Positions 29,510-37,675 of a DNA stretch of 64,000 bases are shown piece after piece. The stretch lies in the NCBI GenBank assembly GCA_947626675.1, contig CANQTC010000003.1, positions 153,356 to 217,355 of the forward strand, given 5' to 3'. The notes below the pieces were generated by a model, which was not told the origin of the DNA, did no database searches, and saw only the letters and a list, made by a program, of their open reading frames with translations. A program made the translations under genes and the position numbers. Every line of letters starts with the position of its first letter. Within the stretch, counting starts at the first letter, position 1. The stretch is from an uncultured Coprococcus sp. Lineage in GTDB: Bacteria; Bacillota; Clostridia; Lachnospirales; Lachnospiraceae.

Positions 29510-30187
29510 ATGGATATGAATATGATACAGGCAAGGGATATCAAAAGATGCTTTATGCTGGGAAGCGGCGAACCGTTCTATGCACTTAAGGGAATCAATA
29601 TTGATGTTCCGGCTTCAAAGCTGACGATACTCAAAGGACGTTCCGGTTCAGGAAAAACAACACTTCTTAATATTTTAAGCGCTTTGGACGAGCCTTCAGA
29701 GGGAGATATTATGATAGAGGACAGGGCATACAGCGCCATGTCCGAGTCCCAGAGGGAGGAGCTTAGACGATACGAGATTGGTTTTATATTTCAGTCTGTT
29801 GCACTGATTCCGATTATGAATGCATATGAAAATGTAGATTTTGGACTAAGACTTGCAAAGTATGAGGGGAATCGTGACCAGCGGATAAAAGAGGTTCTGA
29901 GTATGGTAGGGCTTGCTGCAAGAATGTACCATATGCCGAACCAGATGTCGGGTGGTGAGCAGCAAAGAGTTGCAATCGCAAGGGCTGTCGCTCATAAACC
30001 GAAGGTTATATTTGCAGATGAGCCTACGGGTGCGCTTGATACGGCATCAGGATTGAACGTAATGAAATTGTTTAAGGATTTGGTAAATAAAGAGGGAATA
30101 ACCATAGTTATGACGACGCACGACCCAAACCTTATGGAACTCGGCGATGTGGTATATGAGATAGAGGATGGTGAGATAATTGGCTGA
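29510..30187 (+). CDS. ABC transporter ATP-binding protein (MacB/LolD type)
   Basis: GRSGSGKTT, MSGGEQQR, FADEPTGALD. Confidence 0.93.
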   Translation: MDMNMIQARDIKRCFMLGSGEPFYALKGINIDVPASKLTILKGRSGSGKTTLLNILSALDEPSEGDIMIEDRAYSAMSESQREELRRYEIGFIFQSVALIPIMNAYENVDFGLRLAKYEGNRDQRIKEVLSMVGLAARMYHMPNQMSGGEQQRVAIARAVAHKPKVIFADEPTGALDTASGLNVMKLFKDLVNKEGITIVMTTHDPNLMELGDVVYEIEDGEIIG

Positions 30188-31328: not shown

Positions 31329-31384
31329 AGTTTGAATATTATGTGATAAGCTTGCTTGTTTTTTATTTTTATAATATAATGTAT

Positions 31385-31430
31385 AAGCCATATTCAATAT
31401 TTTATTGGATATGGCTTAAAAAATATTTTT
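31385..31430 (+). terminator. Terminator-like hairpin
   Basis: aagccatat (31385-31393) / atatggctt (31409-31417), followed by imperfect A/T-rich tail. Confidence 0.45.
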
Positions 31431-31456
31431 ATAAAACAGGTAATGGAGGATATCAT

Positions 31457-33004
31457 ATGAAGAAACATAATGGAAAGAAAGTAACTGCAATGCTGCTTAC
31501 ATCAGCGCTCGTTGCTGCTACAGCACTTTCTGGATGTGGAAAAAAGACTGTTGATTATATGGATGATGGTGAAAATGGCGGTAAATCAGACGGTGGAGAT
31601 ATTGCAACAAGACTGGGTATTCCTAAATCATATGATGAAGAGATATCAGTAGGTAAATCAGGTCTTACAAGTGTAAAGATATCCGATTCAGATATAGTTG
31701 TTCCGGATAAAGATAGCATGTCCGTAGTTTACTATGAGAAGAATGATATGGACAATGAATATAAGAAGCAGGTGGCGGAAGCGTTATTTGATAAGAATGA
31801 AGGCATTTATCGTTTTGATTGGGATAAACCATATAAGGGCGATATAGAGTTGATGATAAAGCAGTATCAGGACTTAATAGATGATGCGACAAAGAACGGT
31901 GATAATGAGTCTGTTGATTTTTATAAAGAAAGTATTGACAGCTTAAATGAACAGCTTTCTGTGGCATCGGATGAAAGAGAAGGCGCTGGAGATTACAGCG
32001 GAGATGAATTTATAGGGACTGTTGGAAAAAGTCAGTTTTTACTTTCGTTTATGAGTTCATCAGAGGACTTGGGAAGTTATTTCAGCTTTGATTTGTATCC
32101 GTCTGACTCGTATCTTCAATACAGACCATATGAAGGCGCTACTGCGGCATATTGTTATGACGGCGCTTATACAGATGAGGACATGGAGGATAAAACAAAT
32201 AAATGCAGTATGACATCTGATGAAGCAGTCGAATTTGCAGGCAGTTTTCTTAGCAAGTGTGGGATAAACGACGTCATCAATACCAGTGTTTCTGACCTTA
32301 CATGGGAATATGACAATAGTGCGTACGATATCATAGCAATGGAAAATGATGGATATGTTGTCAATTTTGCACGTTCAGTTGATGGGGTTGCGCCATACAC
32401 AGGTTACACATATATGCTGGAATATATGTGGGACAGCGACTTGTTCTATGATACATCTTACGAGACCTATACAATTAATGTAGATGATAATGGAATTGTT
32501 TCAGCATCATGTTATGACTTATTGAAGCCTACAGGGGATAAGGATACAAATGTAGAACTGATGTCATGGGAAAACATTTTGGAATCCTTAGAAAATGCTG
32601 TTTCAGAATTTTATTCAGAGAATAAAACAAGTTATGATAAGATTACCTTTAATGATGTCAGGCTTTCATATTACAGAGTAGCAGATGGAGACAGATATAA
32701 ATATATACCGGTCTGGATATTTGCACAATGTGAGCAGAATGAAGGAGAACTTGATACGGAGTATCCGATTCAACTAATCATGCTAGATGCGGTGACAGGA
32801 AAGCTTATTAATCTGAAGGATGTGCTTGCTTCTGCTACTTATGAAGATATAGGAGGCGCGGATAGCAGTTCTTACGATATCGATGAAGATGGCAATATTA
32901 TAAGCGAAGATGTTGAAACAGCCTCAGAAGAAGATGAGATACCGGTTGATGATGAAATGCCGGTTGATGATGAGGATATGGACATCGATGATGATGCGTT
33001 ATAA
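31457..33004 (+). CDS. Hypothetical lipoprotein with acidic C-terminus
   Basis: Lipobox LSGCG; ORF opens at 31343, ATG 31457 has aatggagg. Confidence 0.75.
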   Translation: MKKHNGKKVTAMLLTSALVAATALSGCGKKTVDYMDDGENGGKSDGGDIATRLGIPKSYDEEISVGKSGLTSVKISDSDIVVPDKDSMSVVYYEKNDMDNEYKKQVAEALFDKNEGIYRFDWDKPYKGDIELMIKQYQDLIDDATKNGDNESVDFYKESIDSLNEQLSVASDEREGAGDYSGDEFIGTVGKSQFLLSFMSSSEDLGSYFSFDLYPSDSYLQYRPYEGATAAYCYDGAYTDEDMEDKTNKCSMTSDEAVEFAGSFLSKCGINDVINTSVSDLTWEYDNSAYDIIAMENDGYVVNFARSVDGVAPYTGYTYMLEYMWDSDLFYDTSYETYTINVDDNGIVSASCYDLLKPTGDKDTNVELMSWENILESLENAVSEFYSENKTSYDKITFNDVRLSYYRVADGDRYKYIPVWIFAQCEQNEGELDTEYPIQLIMLDAVTGKLINLKDVLASATYEDIGGADSSSYDIDEDGNIISEDVETASEEDEIPVDDEMPVDDEDMDIDDDAL

Positions 33005-33062: not shown

Positions 33063-33091
33063 TTGACATATACCCCTATGGGGTATACTAT
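33063..33091 (+). promoter_or_regulatory. csoR-copA promoter with embedded CsoR-type operator
   Basis: TTGACA (33063-33068), 17-bp spacer, TACTAT (33086-33091); palindrome ATACCCCTATGGGGTAT at 33070-33086 in the spacer. Confidence 0.75.
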
Positions 33092-33161: not shown

Positions 33162-33461
33162 ATGGATAATAATTGCTGCAGCGTCAGAAAAAAAGAGCGG
33201 AGCGCGGAAGAACTGAAAACACTTATAAACAGATTGAACAGAATAGAAGGACAGATACGCGGGGTAAAAGGAATGTTGGAGAAGGAGGCTTATTGTGTAG
33301 ATATCATTACGCAGGTATCAGCGGTTACAGCAGCTTTAAACAGTTTTAACAGGATGTTGCTGACGGAACATATCAAAAGCTGCGTGACAGAAGATATACA
33401 GGCAGGAAAAACGGACTCGGCAGAGGAATTGGCAGAACTGATAAATAAGCTGTTGAAATAA
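33162..33461 (+). CDS. csoR: CsoR-family copper-sensing repressor
   Basis: NRIEGQIRGVKGMLEKEAYCVDII...EHIKSCV (Cys-His-Cys); precedes copA. Confidence 0.9.
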   Translation: MDNNCCSVRKKERSAEELKTLINRLNRIEGQIRGVKGMLEKEAYCVDIITQVSAVTAALNSFNRMLLTEHIKSCVTEDIQAGKTDSAEELAELINKLLK

Positions 33462-33515: not shown

Positions 33516-36101
33516 ATGGCAAAATACAATGTGACCGGCATGAGCTGCAGCGCATGTGTAAGCGCTGTTGAAAAAGCGGTAGGGAAAGTAGACGGCGTAG
33601 AGAATTGTTCGGTAAGTCTGCTTACGAATTCCATGACGGTAGAAGGAACAGCGTCATCTGCCGACATTATATCAGCAGTTCATGACGCAGGATATGGCGC
33701 GAGCCTATATAATGGCGGAACGGACAGTCGTTCTGATAAGGGAAAGGTATCAGAAAGTGATAATGAGATAAAGGTGATGAAACAGCGGCTGGTATGGTCG
33801 GTTATACTGCTTATTCCGTTAATGTACCTATCGATGGGACATATGATGTGGGGATTTCCGTTACCGGAATTTCTTGCAGGCAACCATGTTGCAATAGGAC
33901 TTGTGCAGATGCTGATTACCATAGCAATTATGGTAATCAATCAAAAGTTTTTTATTAATGGATTAAAAAGCGCGATACATGGCTCGCCTAATATGGACAC
34001 GCTTGTGGCGATGGGGGCGGGTGCATCGTTTCTATATAGTATGTATGTATTATTTGCCATGACATATTCTGTTCAGGCAAATGACAACGGGCGAACGATG
34101 GAGCTGATGCATGATTTTTATTTTGAGTCAGCGGCCATGATACTGGCGCTTATAACAGTAGGAAAAACCCTTGAAGCATATTCAAAGGGGAAGACGACAA
34201 ATGCTTTAAAGAGTCTTATGGAGCTGGCGCCTGAAAGGGCTGTAGTAATCAGGGATGGATTAGAGCAGGAAGTAGATATCTCTCAGGTGGTGGTCGGTGA
34301 TATATTTGTAGTAAAACCAGGTGAAAGTATTCCTGTGGATGGGCGTGTGATAGACGGGAACAGCGCTGTAAATGAAGCAGCACTATCTGGTGAGAGTATT
34401 CCGGTTGATAAGACAGAAGGAGATATGGTATCGGCGGCAACGATGAATCAGTCCGGTTATTTGAAATGTGAAGCAGTAAGAATTGGGCAGGATACAGCGC
34501 TTGCAAAGATTATCAATATGGTCAGTGATGCGGCATCCTCAAAAGCCCCGATTGCAAAAATTGCAGATAAGGTTTCCGGTATATTTGTTCCGACGGTGCT
34601 TCTTATATCATTTATTACGGCTATTGTGTGGATTTTAGTGGGAAAAAGTTCCGGTTTTGTACTTGCAAGGGCGATATCTGTGCTTGTCATAAGCTGTCCA
34701 TGCGCTTTGGGACTTGCAACACCTGTTGCCATTATGGTCGGAAGCGGAAAGGGGGCAAAGAACGGAATCTTATATAAAAATGCATCGGCGCTTGAACAGA
34801 CCGGGAAAACAGATACCGTAGTGATGGATAAGACGGGTACGATAACAAATGGAGAGCCTGTAGTAACCGATATCATATGTGCCAAAGATGTAAAGGAAAA
34901 AGATTTCCTTACTTATGCATATTCACTTGAACGCTTCAGCGAACATCCGCTTGCGAAAGCAGTTATAAAAAAGGGAACTGAACTGGAAATACAGGAGCTT
35001 AACGCAGCGGAATTTGCAGCAGTTCCCGGAAATGGACTTACAGCCACGATAGATGGCAGAACCGTAGTAGGCGGAAACAGAAATTATATAAGTAAATATA
35101 TAGAAAATGCAGATAATAACAGTAAAAAACTTATTTTGAAAGCAGAAGAACTGTCAGAACAGGGAAAAACACCATTATATTTTGCTATGGGCGCTCCTGA
35201 AAAGAAGATGAAGCTTCTTGGGATTATAGCTGTAGCAGATACCGTAAAGCCGGATAGCCGGATGGCGATAGCAGACTTAAAGGAAATGGGATTTAATGTT
35301 GTTATGCTTACAGGTGATAATGAAAAAACAGCGGCTGCAATCGGCAGGGAAGTGGGGGTAGATAAAGTCATTGCAGGTGTTCTTCCGGAGGGAAAAGATA
35401 AGGTTATCAGTGAACTTCAAAAAAACGGAAAAGTTATCATGGTAGGTGATGGGATAAACGATGCGCCTGCACTTACAAGAGCAGATATCGGTATTGCGAT
35501 AGGTGCAGGTACGGATGTGGCGATTGATGCTGCGGATGTTGTTCTGATGAAGAACGAGCTTCGTGACGTTCCGGCGGCTATCAGACTTAGTATGGCGGCG
35601 CTATCCAATATAAAGGGAAATTTATTCTGGGCATTTATTTATAATATTATAGGGATTCCGATTGCCGCGGGTTGTCTGTATCCGATATTTGGGATTACGT
35701 TAAATCCTATGTTTGGTGCATTTGCAATGAGTTTGTCAAGTTTTTGTGTCGTAACAAATGCTTTGAGGTTGAACTTAGTTGATATATATGGTAAAAATAA
35801 GAGATATAAGATAAAAAGACATACGATGTCGGAAGACAGGGAAGAAATGAATATGCAAAATAAAGAAATATCAGATATGGAGGATGGAAAAATGACAAAA
35901 GTGATGGAGATAAACGGTATGATGTGCGCGCATTGTGAAGCAAGAGTAAAGAAATGTCTTGAGAAGCTTCCGGAGGTAGAAGAAGCTTCCGTAAGCCACG
36001 AAAAAGGTACAGCAGTTGTAACACTGAAAAAGGATATTGATAATGAGAAATTAAAAGCGGCAGTAGAAGCACAGGATTATGAAGTTATATCTGTTTCATA
36101 A
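33516..36101 (+). CDS. copA: Copper P1B-type ATPase with N-terminal HMA and C-terminal CopZ-like HMA domain
   Basis: GMSCSACVS, SCPCALGLA, DKTGTIT, GDGINDAPAL; C-terminal NGMMCAHCEARV. Confidence 0.95.
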   Translation: MAKYNVTGMSCSACVSAVEKAVGKVDGVENCSVSLLTNSMTVEGTASSADIISAVHDAGYGASLYNGGTDSRSDKGKVSESDNEIKVMKQRLVWSVILLIPLMYLSMGHMMWGFPLPEFLAGNHVAIGLVQMLITIAIMVINQKFFINGLKSAIHGSPNMDTLVAMGAGASFLYSMYVLFAMTYSVQANDNGRTMELMHDFYFESAAMILALITVGKTLEAYSKGKTTNALKSLMELAPERAVVIRDGLEQEVDISQVVVGDIFVVKPGESIPVDGRVIDGNSAVNEAALSGESIPVDKTEGDMVSAATMNQSGYLKCEAVRIGQDTALAKIINMVSDAASSKAPIAKIADKVSGIFVPTVLLISFITAIVWILVGKSSGFVLARAISVLVISCPCALGLATPVAIMVGSGKGAKNGILYKNASALEQTGKTDTVVMDKTGTITNGEPVVTDIICAKDVKEKDFLTYAYSLERFSEHPLAKAVIKKGTELEIQELNAAEFAAVPGNGLTATIDGRTVVGGNRNYISKYIENADNNSKKLILKAEELSEQGKTPLYFAMGAPEKKMKLLGIIAVADTVKPDSRMAIADLKEMGFNVVMLTGDNEKTAAAIGREVGVDKVIAGVLPEGKDKVISELQKNGKVIMVGDGINDAPALTRADIGIAIGAGTDVAIDAADVVLMKNELRDVPAAIRLSMAALSNIKGNLFWAFIYNIIGIPIAAGCLYPIFGITLNPMFGAFAMSLSSFCVVTNALRLNLVDIYGKNKRYKIKRHTMSEDREEMNMQNKEISDMEDGKMTKVMEINGMMCAHCEARVKKCLEKLPEVEEASVSHEKGTAVVTLKKDIDNEKLKAAVEAQDYEVISVS

Positions 36102-36145: not shown

Positions 36146-37675
36146 ATGAAGAGAATATTAAACCGGATATTTAGCAGAATGGTTATGACCTGTGTTTTGG
36201 TTGCCTTGCAGGTTGCTGTCATGATTATAGGGATACTGGGTTTACAATCATATTATCCGTATCTGTCAGCAGCGTTTACAATATTAAGTTTTCTGATGGT
36301 AATGTACCTGATTACAAAAGATACAAATCCGGATATAAAGCTCGCATGGATTGTTCCGATACTGTTATTTCCGGTATTAGGCGGATTGCTGTATCTGTTT
36401 TACGGTCGGGTGGTTATACCGAAACGTCTTCGGAAAAAACTTCTTAAGGTAAAGGAACAGGAAATATACGAAAATATTTATGATAATCATCAATGCTGTT
36501 TAGACGAGCTTGCGTGTGAACCGCCATATCGGTTATTTCATTATGTATCGAAATATGGTGAAGTGCCTTTATATAAGAATACGAAAGTAAAGTATTACGC
36601 AATGGGTGATGATGCATGGCCGGATATGCTGCAGGACTTGCGGGAAGCAGAGAACTATATCTTTATGGAATATTTTATTATCGCTCATGGCGTGATGTGG
36701 AATTCTGTACTTGAGATATTGAAAGAAAAGGCTGCGGCGGGATTAGACGTAAGGGTTATGTATGATGATATCGGTTCGGTATTTAATGTGGATAAATATT
36801 ACTGGAAAGAGCTTGAATCATTTGGAATAAAATGTATTTCGTTTAATCAGGTTGTGCCTTTTCTGGCAACGATATTTAATAACAGAGACCATAGGAAGAT
36901 AACGGTTGTCGATGGAAAAATAGCATATACAGGTGGTTTTAATCTGGCGGATGAATATATCAATAAGGTTACGCTTCATGGAGTCTGGAAAGATGATGGC
37001 GTAAGGCTTGAGGGAGAGGGTGCGTGGAGTTTTACTGTTATGTTCCTTCAAATATGGAACTCGGTTCGGTATGTCGAAGGAAATTATACGAATTACAGAC
37101 CGGATGCGGACTTTTCTTTGTATGATGACGGGTATGTGCAGCCATATAAAACCAATCCGCTGGCGAGTGAGGTATTAGGTGAGAATATATATATACAGAT
37201 GATAAATGATGCAAAAGATTATGTTTATATATTTACACCATATCTGATTGTTACAAATGAATTGATGTCCGCTATGAAGCTTTCTGCCAAAAGAGGCGTT
37301 GATATCAGAATTGTTACACCTGCCATACCGGATAAGAAGTTTATCTTTCGTATGACACAGACCAGTTACAGACCGCTGATTCATGCAGGAGTCAGGATAT
37401 ATCAGTATACACCGGGATTTATTCATTCAAAATGTATTCTTGCGGATGATAATCTTGCATCCGTTGGCTCTATCAATATGGATAACAGGAGTTTCTATCA
37501 TCATTTTGAATGTGGCACACTGATATACAAATCAAAAGCATTGGAAGATATCAAAAAAGATATGCTGAATACATTTGAGATATCGGAAGAGATTGATTAT
37601 GAATGGTGTAAAAAGAATTTATCGAAAATAACAGTTATTGATGCAATTTTGAGACTGCTTTCACCATTGTTATAG
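36146..37675 (+). CDS. cls: Cardiolipin synthase
   Basis: Two HKD-type motifs (HRKITVVDGKIAYTGG, HSKCILADDNLASVGS); N-terminal TMs. Confidence 0.9.
   Translation: MKRILNRIFSRMVMTCVLVALQVAVMIIGILGLQSYYPYLSAAFTILSFLMVMYLITKDTNPDIKLAWIVPILLFPVLGGLLYLFYGRVVIPKRLRKKLLKVKEQEIYENIYDNHQCCLDELACEPPYRLFHYVSKYGEVPLYKNTKVKYYAMGDDAWPDMLQDLREAENYIFMEYFIIAHGVMWNSVLEILKEKAAAGLDVRVMYDDIGSVFNVDKYYWKELESFGIKCISFNQVVPFLATIFNNRDHRKITVVDGKIAYTGGFNLADEYINKVTLHGVWKDDGVRLEGEGAWSFTVMFLQIWNSVRYVEGNYTNYRPDADFSLYDDGYVQPYKTNPLASEVLGENIYIQMINDAKDYVYIFTPYLIVTNELMSAMKLSAKRGVDIRIVTPAIPDKKFIFRMTQTSYRPLIHAGVRIYQYTPGFIHSKCILADDNLASVGSINMDNRSFYHHFECGTLIYKSKALEDIKKDMLNTFEISEEIDYEWCKKNLSKITVIDAILRLLSPLL

Follow-up and report, generated by a model that had tools for sequence, protein, structure and literature searches.

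The copA/CopA(Z) frameshifting of Escherichia coli was reportedly the subject of work by Meydan et al. and by Drees et al. in 2017. In E. coli, copA gives both the copper pump and a free HMA chaperone of about 70 aa by programmed -1 frameshifting, and copZ is a separate gene in most other bacteria, according to PMC10187127 and PMC5009743. A second metal-binding HMA domain at the C-terminus of a copper ATPase has been described in Archaeoglobus fulgidus CopA, where sections of PMC7558416 hold the C-terminal site to be regulatory. Outside copper metabolism, phage endolysins use an in-frame internal start with its own ribosome binding site to make a C-terminal domain in addition to the full-length protein (PMC9430671; CTP1L, PMC4777826).

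The copA gene analyzed here lies in a stretch of 64,000 nucleotides from an uncultured Coprococcus sp. of the Lachnospiraceae (the window). Like E. coli copA, it is one gene for a Cu(I) pump and a free HMA chaperone, the free form being predicted here. Unlike E. coli copA, in which the N-terminal domain is freed by a frameshift and early termination, the C-terminal domain would be freed by in-frame internal initiation, and the C-terminal site requires no change of frame relative to copA. The analogy with E. coli drawn in an earlier note on this DNA therefore holds for the outcome but not for the mechanism, which would be an in-frame start ahead of the C-terminal domain rather than a -1 frameshift after the N-terminal one. 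As in operons of the csoR-copZA and copYZA types, an HMA chaperone sits beside copA under copper control and with the same order of Shine-Dalgarno sequence (SD) and ATG; unlike in those operons, copA runs into copZ without an intervening stop codon, and a tethered CopA-CopZ must therefore also be made. The window's CopA shares with that of A. fulgidus a C-terminal HMA domain on a P1B-1 Cu-ATPase in addition to the N-terminal one (3fry was a weak structure match), although the A. fulgidus domain is described as pump-regulatory in those sections of PMC7558416, which mention no free form. The likeness to phage endolysins is limited to the internal in-frame start and the C-terminal product, predicted here; protein family and function are unrelated. 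Among open-access papers, we found no report of an internal CopZ start within copA.

Results

The copper operon of the window is encoded on the + strand. A sigma-70-type promoter (TTGACA-17-TACTAT; 33063..33091; 10/12 in a consensus scan) precedes csoR and copA, and a perfect 19-bp palindrome, TATACCCCTATGGGGTATA (33069..33087), sits between its -35 and -10 boxes. This palindrome had one match within the window and none in 100 shuffles. From knowledge of the family, we take it to be a putative site of the CsoR-operator type. The gene for a csoR-family copper-sensing repressor (33162..33461; PF02583, E 6.8e-30) is followed by copA (33516..36101), which encodes a P1B-type copper-exporting ATPase of 861 aa. 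A cardiolipin-synthase-like gene (36146-37675) comes after copA, and a DUF6034 lipoprotein-like gene (31343-33004), whose domain name assigns no function, adjoins the operon on the upstream side. The CopA assignment rests on E1-E2 ATPase and HAD domains (PF00122, PF00702), HMA domains (PF00403), scores above the cut-offs of TIGR01525 and TIGR01511, and the presence of both CPC and DKTGT in the translation. Pfam detected two HMA domains, an N-terminal, metal-binding domain of the CxAC type (GMSCSAC; 33525..33695, residues 4-60) and a C-terminal domain with the motif GMMCAHC.

The C-terminal domain resembles a free CopZ in size and type. Translation from ATG 35892 to the copA stop codon, which ends at 36101, gives 69 aa (about 65-75 expected) that form a complete HMA unit above the Pfam cut-off, with GMMCAHC fitting MxCxxC; a structure search matched the domain to solved HMA/CopZ structures, CopZ 6ff2 included. 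Translation, Pfam and structure match thus agree with the earlier note, which had read the last 69 codons of copA as a complete HMA domain of CopZ size. The motif is also of the CxHC variant, which was present in 75 of 77 C-terminal domains and in most of the free CopZs seen among relatives; none of the 77 N-terminal domains had that histidine. The 69-aa domain did not reach the named NCBIfam CopZ models (best NF047957, 53.4 bits against a cut-off of 85), for which reason we call it CopZ-like and not a certified CopZ equivalog. By these features, the domain (35892..36101) is predicted to act as a free chaperone that would bind Cu(I) and transfer it.

The region ahead of this domain contains a candidate translation start. 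Positions 35870-35899 read ATCAGATATGGAGGATGGAAAAATGACAAA, in which the SD GGAGG (35879..35883) lies 8 nt ahead of an ATG (35892..35894) in frame with copA, exactly where the earlier note had placed both. SD and ATG are conserved in related fusions, and the site accordingly has its own SD at 5-9 nt and a start codon conserved across species, as an in-frame internal translation start would. They are reached through an A-rich, in-frame variable linker (35772..35891) that runs from the last membrane segment to the HMA domain and spans 29 to more than 100 residues in relatives. A second in-frame ATG at 35877, 15 nt upstream of 35892, overlaps the SD, and the related fusions compared do not keep an ATG there as a start. 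As a null, internal in-frame ATGs at least 30 codons into and at least 40 from the end of the 36 long ORFs of the window were scored. Of these 535 ATGs, 0.7% were at or below -7 kcal/mol in SD duplex energy and only two (0.4%) reached -9 kcal/mol, ATG 35892 being the stronger of the pair (-9.3). The other site near -9, at 29711, is inside the ORF of an ABC-transporter ATPase (29510-30187), and its SD is probably due to chance.

Fusions of this kind occur widely among Lachnospiraceae and in other Clostridia, and a fused copA is the usual form in the family. The fusion was present in all four relatives from the genus, and comparison of relatives showed that it is not recent in this genome, a possibility that the earlier note had raised. 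For the family survey, we searched 120 Lachnospiraceae genera, at about one genome per genus, with a profile of the C-terminal domain and compared the ends of copA. Of 83 fused loci, 80 had the ATG, with a strong SD in 70 and a weaker one in 10, and the other 3 had neither; with a narrower search pattern, the counts among 81 loci were 67 strong, 11 weak and 3 neither. The SD is weak or absent in about 12-16% of family-level fusions. The median SD duplex energy was -9.0 and 88% of ATG-bearing loci were at or below -7, against 3.6% of the other internal ATGs in the family's copA genes (n=1,268; p ~1e-45). In a second, partly independent set (80 clostridial contigs plus the genus relatives), 60 of 78 fused loci were strong, 10 weak and 8 without, and a strong SD was found in 85% compared with 1.8% of other internal ATGs of the same genes. 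A class-wide draw gave 23 strong sites, 2 weak ones and one in which GTG, with AAGGAGG, replaced ATG. The cultured commensal Ruminococcus bromii likewise has SD and ATG at its locus (L054). Within a single genus (48 species), 20/27 readable loci were strong and 7/27 weak, with varied linkers. Loss of SD or ATG from a retained fusion had been named beforehand as evidence against internal initiation; the opposite was found across Lachnospiraceae and other Clostridia.

Within the linker, little is conserved beyond the features of a start. In 90 of 104 related fusions, the ATG occupied exactly the same position. Of the 14 loci with no ATG at the usual codon, SD and ATG were shifted together in 10, one had GTG and an SD, and three had neither. 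The aligned spacing was 8 nt in 53/70 loci, and sequence information had its maxima over GGAGG (-13..-9) and over the ATG, with low values across the remaining linker. The distance from the SD-ATG pair to the start of the HMA domain was nearly fixed, whereas that to the last helix ranged from 29 to more than 100 codons. Three loci (L088, L146 and L152) encode a CopA with two C-terminal HMA domains, and in these SD and ATG precede the last copy.

Codon choice at the SD points to selection on nucleotides. Glutamate at codon -4 was encoded by GAG in 65/68 loci under a fixed-position rule and in 72/76 under a best-ATG rule, compared with 47% elsewhere in the genes (p 9e-19). Neighboring glutamates avoided GAG (0/25 at codon -6 and 5/39 at -3), and lysine at codon -5 was AAG in 47/57 against 51%. 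The SD was stronger than under amino-acid-preserving resampling with codons redrawn per gene (paired p 1.5e-13), even though the amino acids themselves lift the SD score, the mean of the synonymous null being already about -5.9. Two codon phases (GAG and GGA-GAG) were used to build the SD, and differing residues (KGE, MEE, SEE, GGD and PRE) encoded the same SD. Bias from picking the best ATG was considered and dismissed, as the fixed-position repeat gave the same result; the control ATGs together with synonymous resampling ruled out a chance SD in an A/G-rich linker. It follows from the synonymous choices that the nucleotides, not the amino acids alone, were selected.

RNA around the internal ATG was unstructured (mean -1.0 compared with -8.8 kcal/mol at other internal ATGs), for which the A-rich linker partly accounts. 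All 79 fused loci tested had an open reading frame through the linker, whereas shuffled linkers would be open in about 8, a contrast that is an upper bound because the loci were partly found as long open frames. As the linker is open in every fused locus tested, both products appear to be selected. Gene architecture, SD and ATG, the conservation of the pair, selection at the codon level and a linker that is kept open are all features of the DNA itself.

Some relatives have copA and copZ as separate genes. In a tree of the CopA core, three split pairs (L083, L087 and L095) were nested in fused clades. The close sisters L050 (fused) and L095 (split, with the copA stop overlapping the copZ start as ATGA) have the same SD and ATG, and so do L071 (fused) and L087 (split). 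The split forms among the closer relatives of the window's genome look secondary. Start losses were scattered over the same tree (9 rows, 8 changes).

Genomes with start-less fusions should need another source of free CopZ if the internal start is what supplies it. A free gene for a CopZ-sized HMA protein (E <= 1.5e-15) was found in 2/72 genomes with a strong start and in 6/13 whose start was weak or missing (p 9e-5); the p-value ranges from 0.01 to 1e-4 with the E-value cut-off, classification was partly by hand, and the statistic ignores phylogeny. All nine start-less genomes examined had a separate copZ-like gene. At L211 (668-3510), the gene right behind a start-less copA fusion is a stand-alone HMA gene that carries GGAGG and an ATG of its own, which looks like a renewed supply of the free chaperone. 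We regard this complement of free copZ and start loss as supportive, not decisive. In the window's own genome (80% complete), no other soluble CopZ-like gene was detected. The only further HMA protein found there is membrane-anchored and about 133 aa long (L210 1162-1563; same contig, ~77.2 kb). It combines a single membrane segment at the N-terminus with an HMA domain of the CxxC kind, and its gene lies beside a fur-like gene. Comparable HMA frames of 120-150 aa recur across many genomes of the family.

Discussion

The most probable reading of the locus, to which we assign a probability of roughly 0.88 on sequence evidence, is that a conserved in-frame internal initiation within copA gives a free CopZ in addition to the fusion. 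This is what the earlier note had proposed, and the conservation of SD and ATG and the codon choice at the SD support it. Ribosomes that start at 33516 would make the full pump, whose cytoplasmic C-terminus would hold the CopZ-like domain on a flexible linker, and other ribosomes would bind the SD at 35879-35883 on the same copper-induced, CsoR-controlled mRNA. Initiation at ATG 35892 would then give the 69-aa HMA protein only, a free CopZ-type chaperone that would pick up cytosolic Cu(I) and pass it to CopA and CsoR. Use of the internal site by ribosomes in the cell, a stable product and its action as a chaperone are what we infer from these features; a division of labor between tethered and free forms may also be envisaged. 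Elongating ribosomes could suppress internal initiation.

A free chaperone might instead arise from a separate short mRNA begun within copA, whose translation the SD would serve, or from proteolysis of the linker. Judging by its title, the 2017 study by Drees et al. reportedly found differential transcript formation for E. coli copA as well, and an internal transcript would still need the SD; on the other hand, a promoter scan found no promoter-like site on the + strand between the copA start and the internal ATG, and proteolysis requires neither SD nor ATG. These routes seem improbable to us.

The SD and ATG could also be relics of once-separate copA and copZ genes, left with no function when the copA stop was lost. 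Free copZ genes with their own SD occur directly downstream of copA in related genomes (L203, L204, L205, L083, L087 and L095), which makes a fusion by stop loss plausible as an origin. As a complete account, it is very unlikely: the fusion is found in more than 80 family-level loci and in other families, and its diverged linkers keep little beyond SD and ATG, so that in a fused state so long spread a relic pair would have decayed. In addition, codon choice is fixed at the SD codons only, and where the SD disappears or shifts, the ATG does so with it.

Translational pausing is a further alternative. It has been proposed that SD-like stretches inside genes slow ribosomes, and at this domain border a delay past the last membrane helix might help the C-terminal domain to insert or fold, with no initiation taking place. 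A pause, however, needs no start codon 8 nt farther on, yet the spacing to an ATG or GTG stays fixed and the start codon shifts with the SD. The distance to the last helix varies, whereas that to the HMA start is nearly fixed; and the local RNA is unstructured, like that of real starts. We give such a pause element little credence. That the fusion alone matters, with K-E-E-x-x-M conserved at the protein level, as a motif of the linker might be, and the SD a mere by-product, is hardly tenable: Lys-Glu-Glu is common ahead of the Met and residues alone raise the SD score, but synonymous codons build GGAGG exactly at the site and are avoided in adjacent codons, different residues encode the same SD, and start-less fusions drop both Met and SD yet stay fused.

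Internal initiation within copA, if it occurs, would be a third, independently evolved route to CopZ besides the separate gene and the frameshift of E. coli. 'One gene, pump plus chaperone' would then have arisen on two or more occasions through unrelated translational mechanisms, and such repeated origins would imply a strong pressure coupling the output of CopZ and CopA. We consider it likely that, throughout the Clostridia, CopZ is a conserved in-frame internal gene of copA, and that the internal SD would set the ratio of tethered to free forms made from one copper-induced mRNA. Other fusions of a transporter with a chaperone, such as those of the MerT/CopZ-like kind, may hide the same trick; MerT/CopZ-like and MerT-MerP fusions are represented by curated families (NF045683 and NF033556). 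The pairs of fused and split sisters, together with the start-less fusions, offer natural test material.

To our knowledge, internal-initiation sites have hardly been studied in gut Lachnospiraceae and Ruminococcaceae. If the present reading is correct, copA would add a broadly conserved bacterial site of this kind in both families, and annotation would be overlooking a copper chaperone in many genomes.
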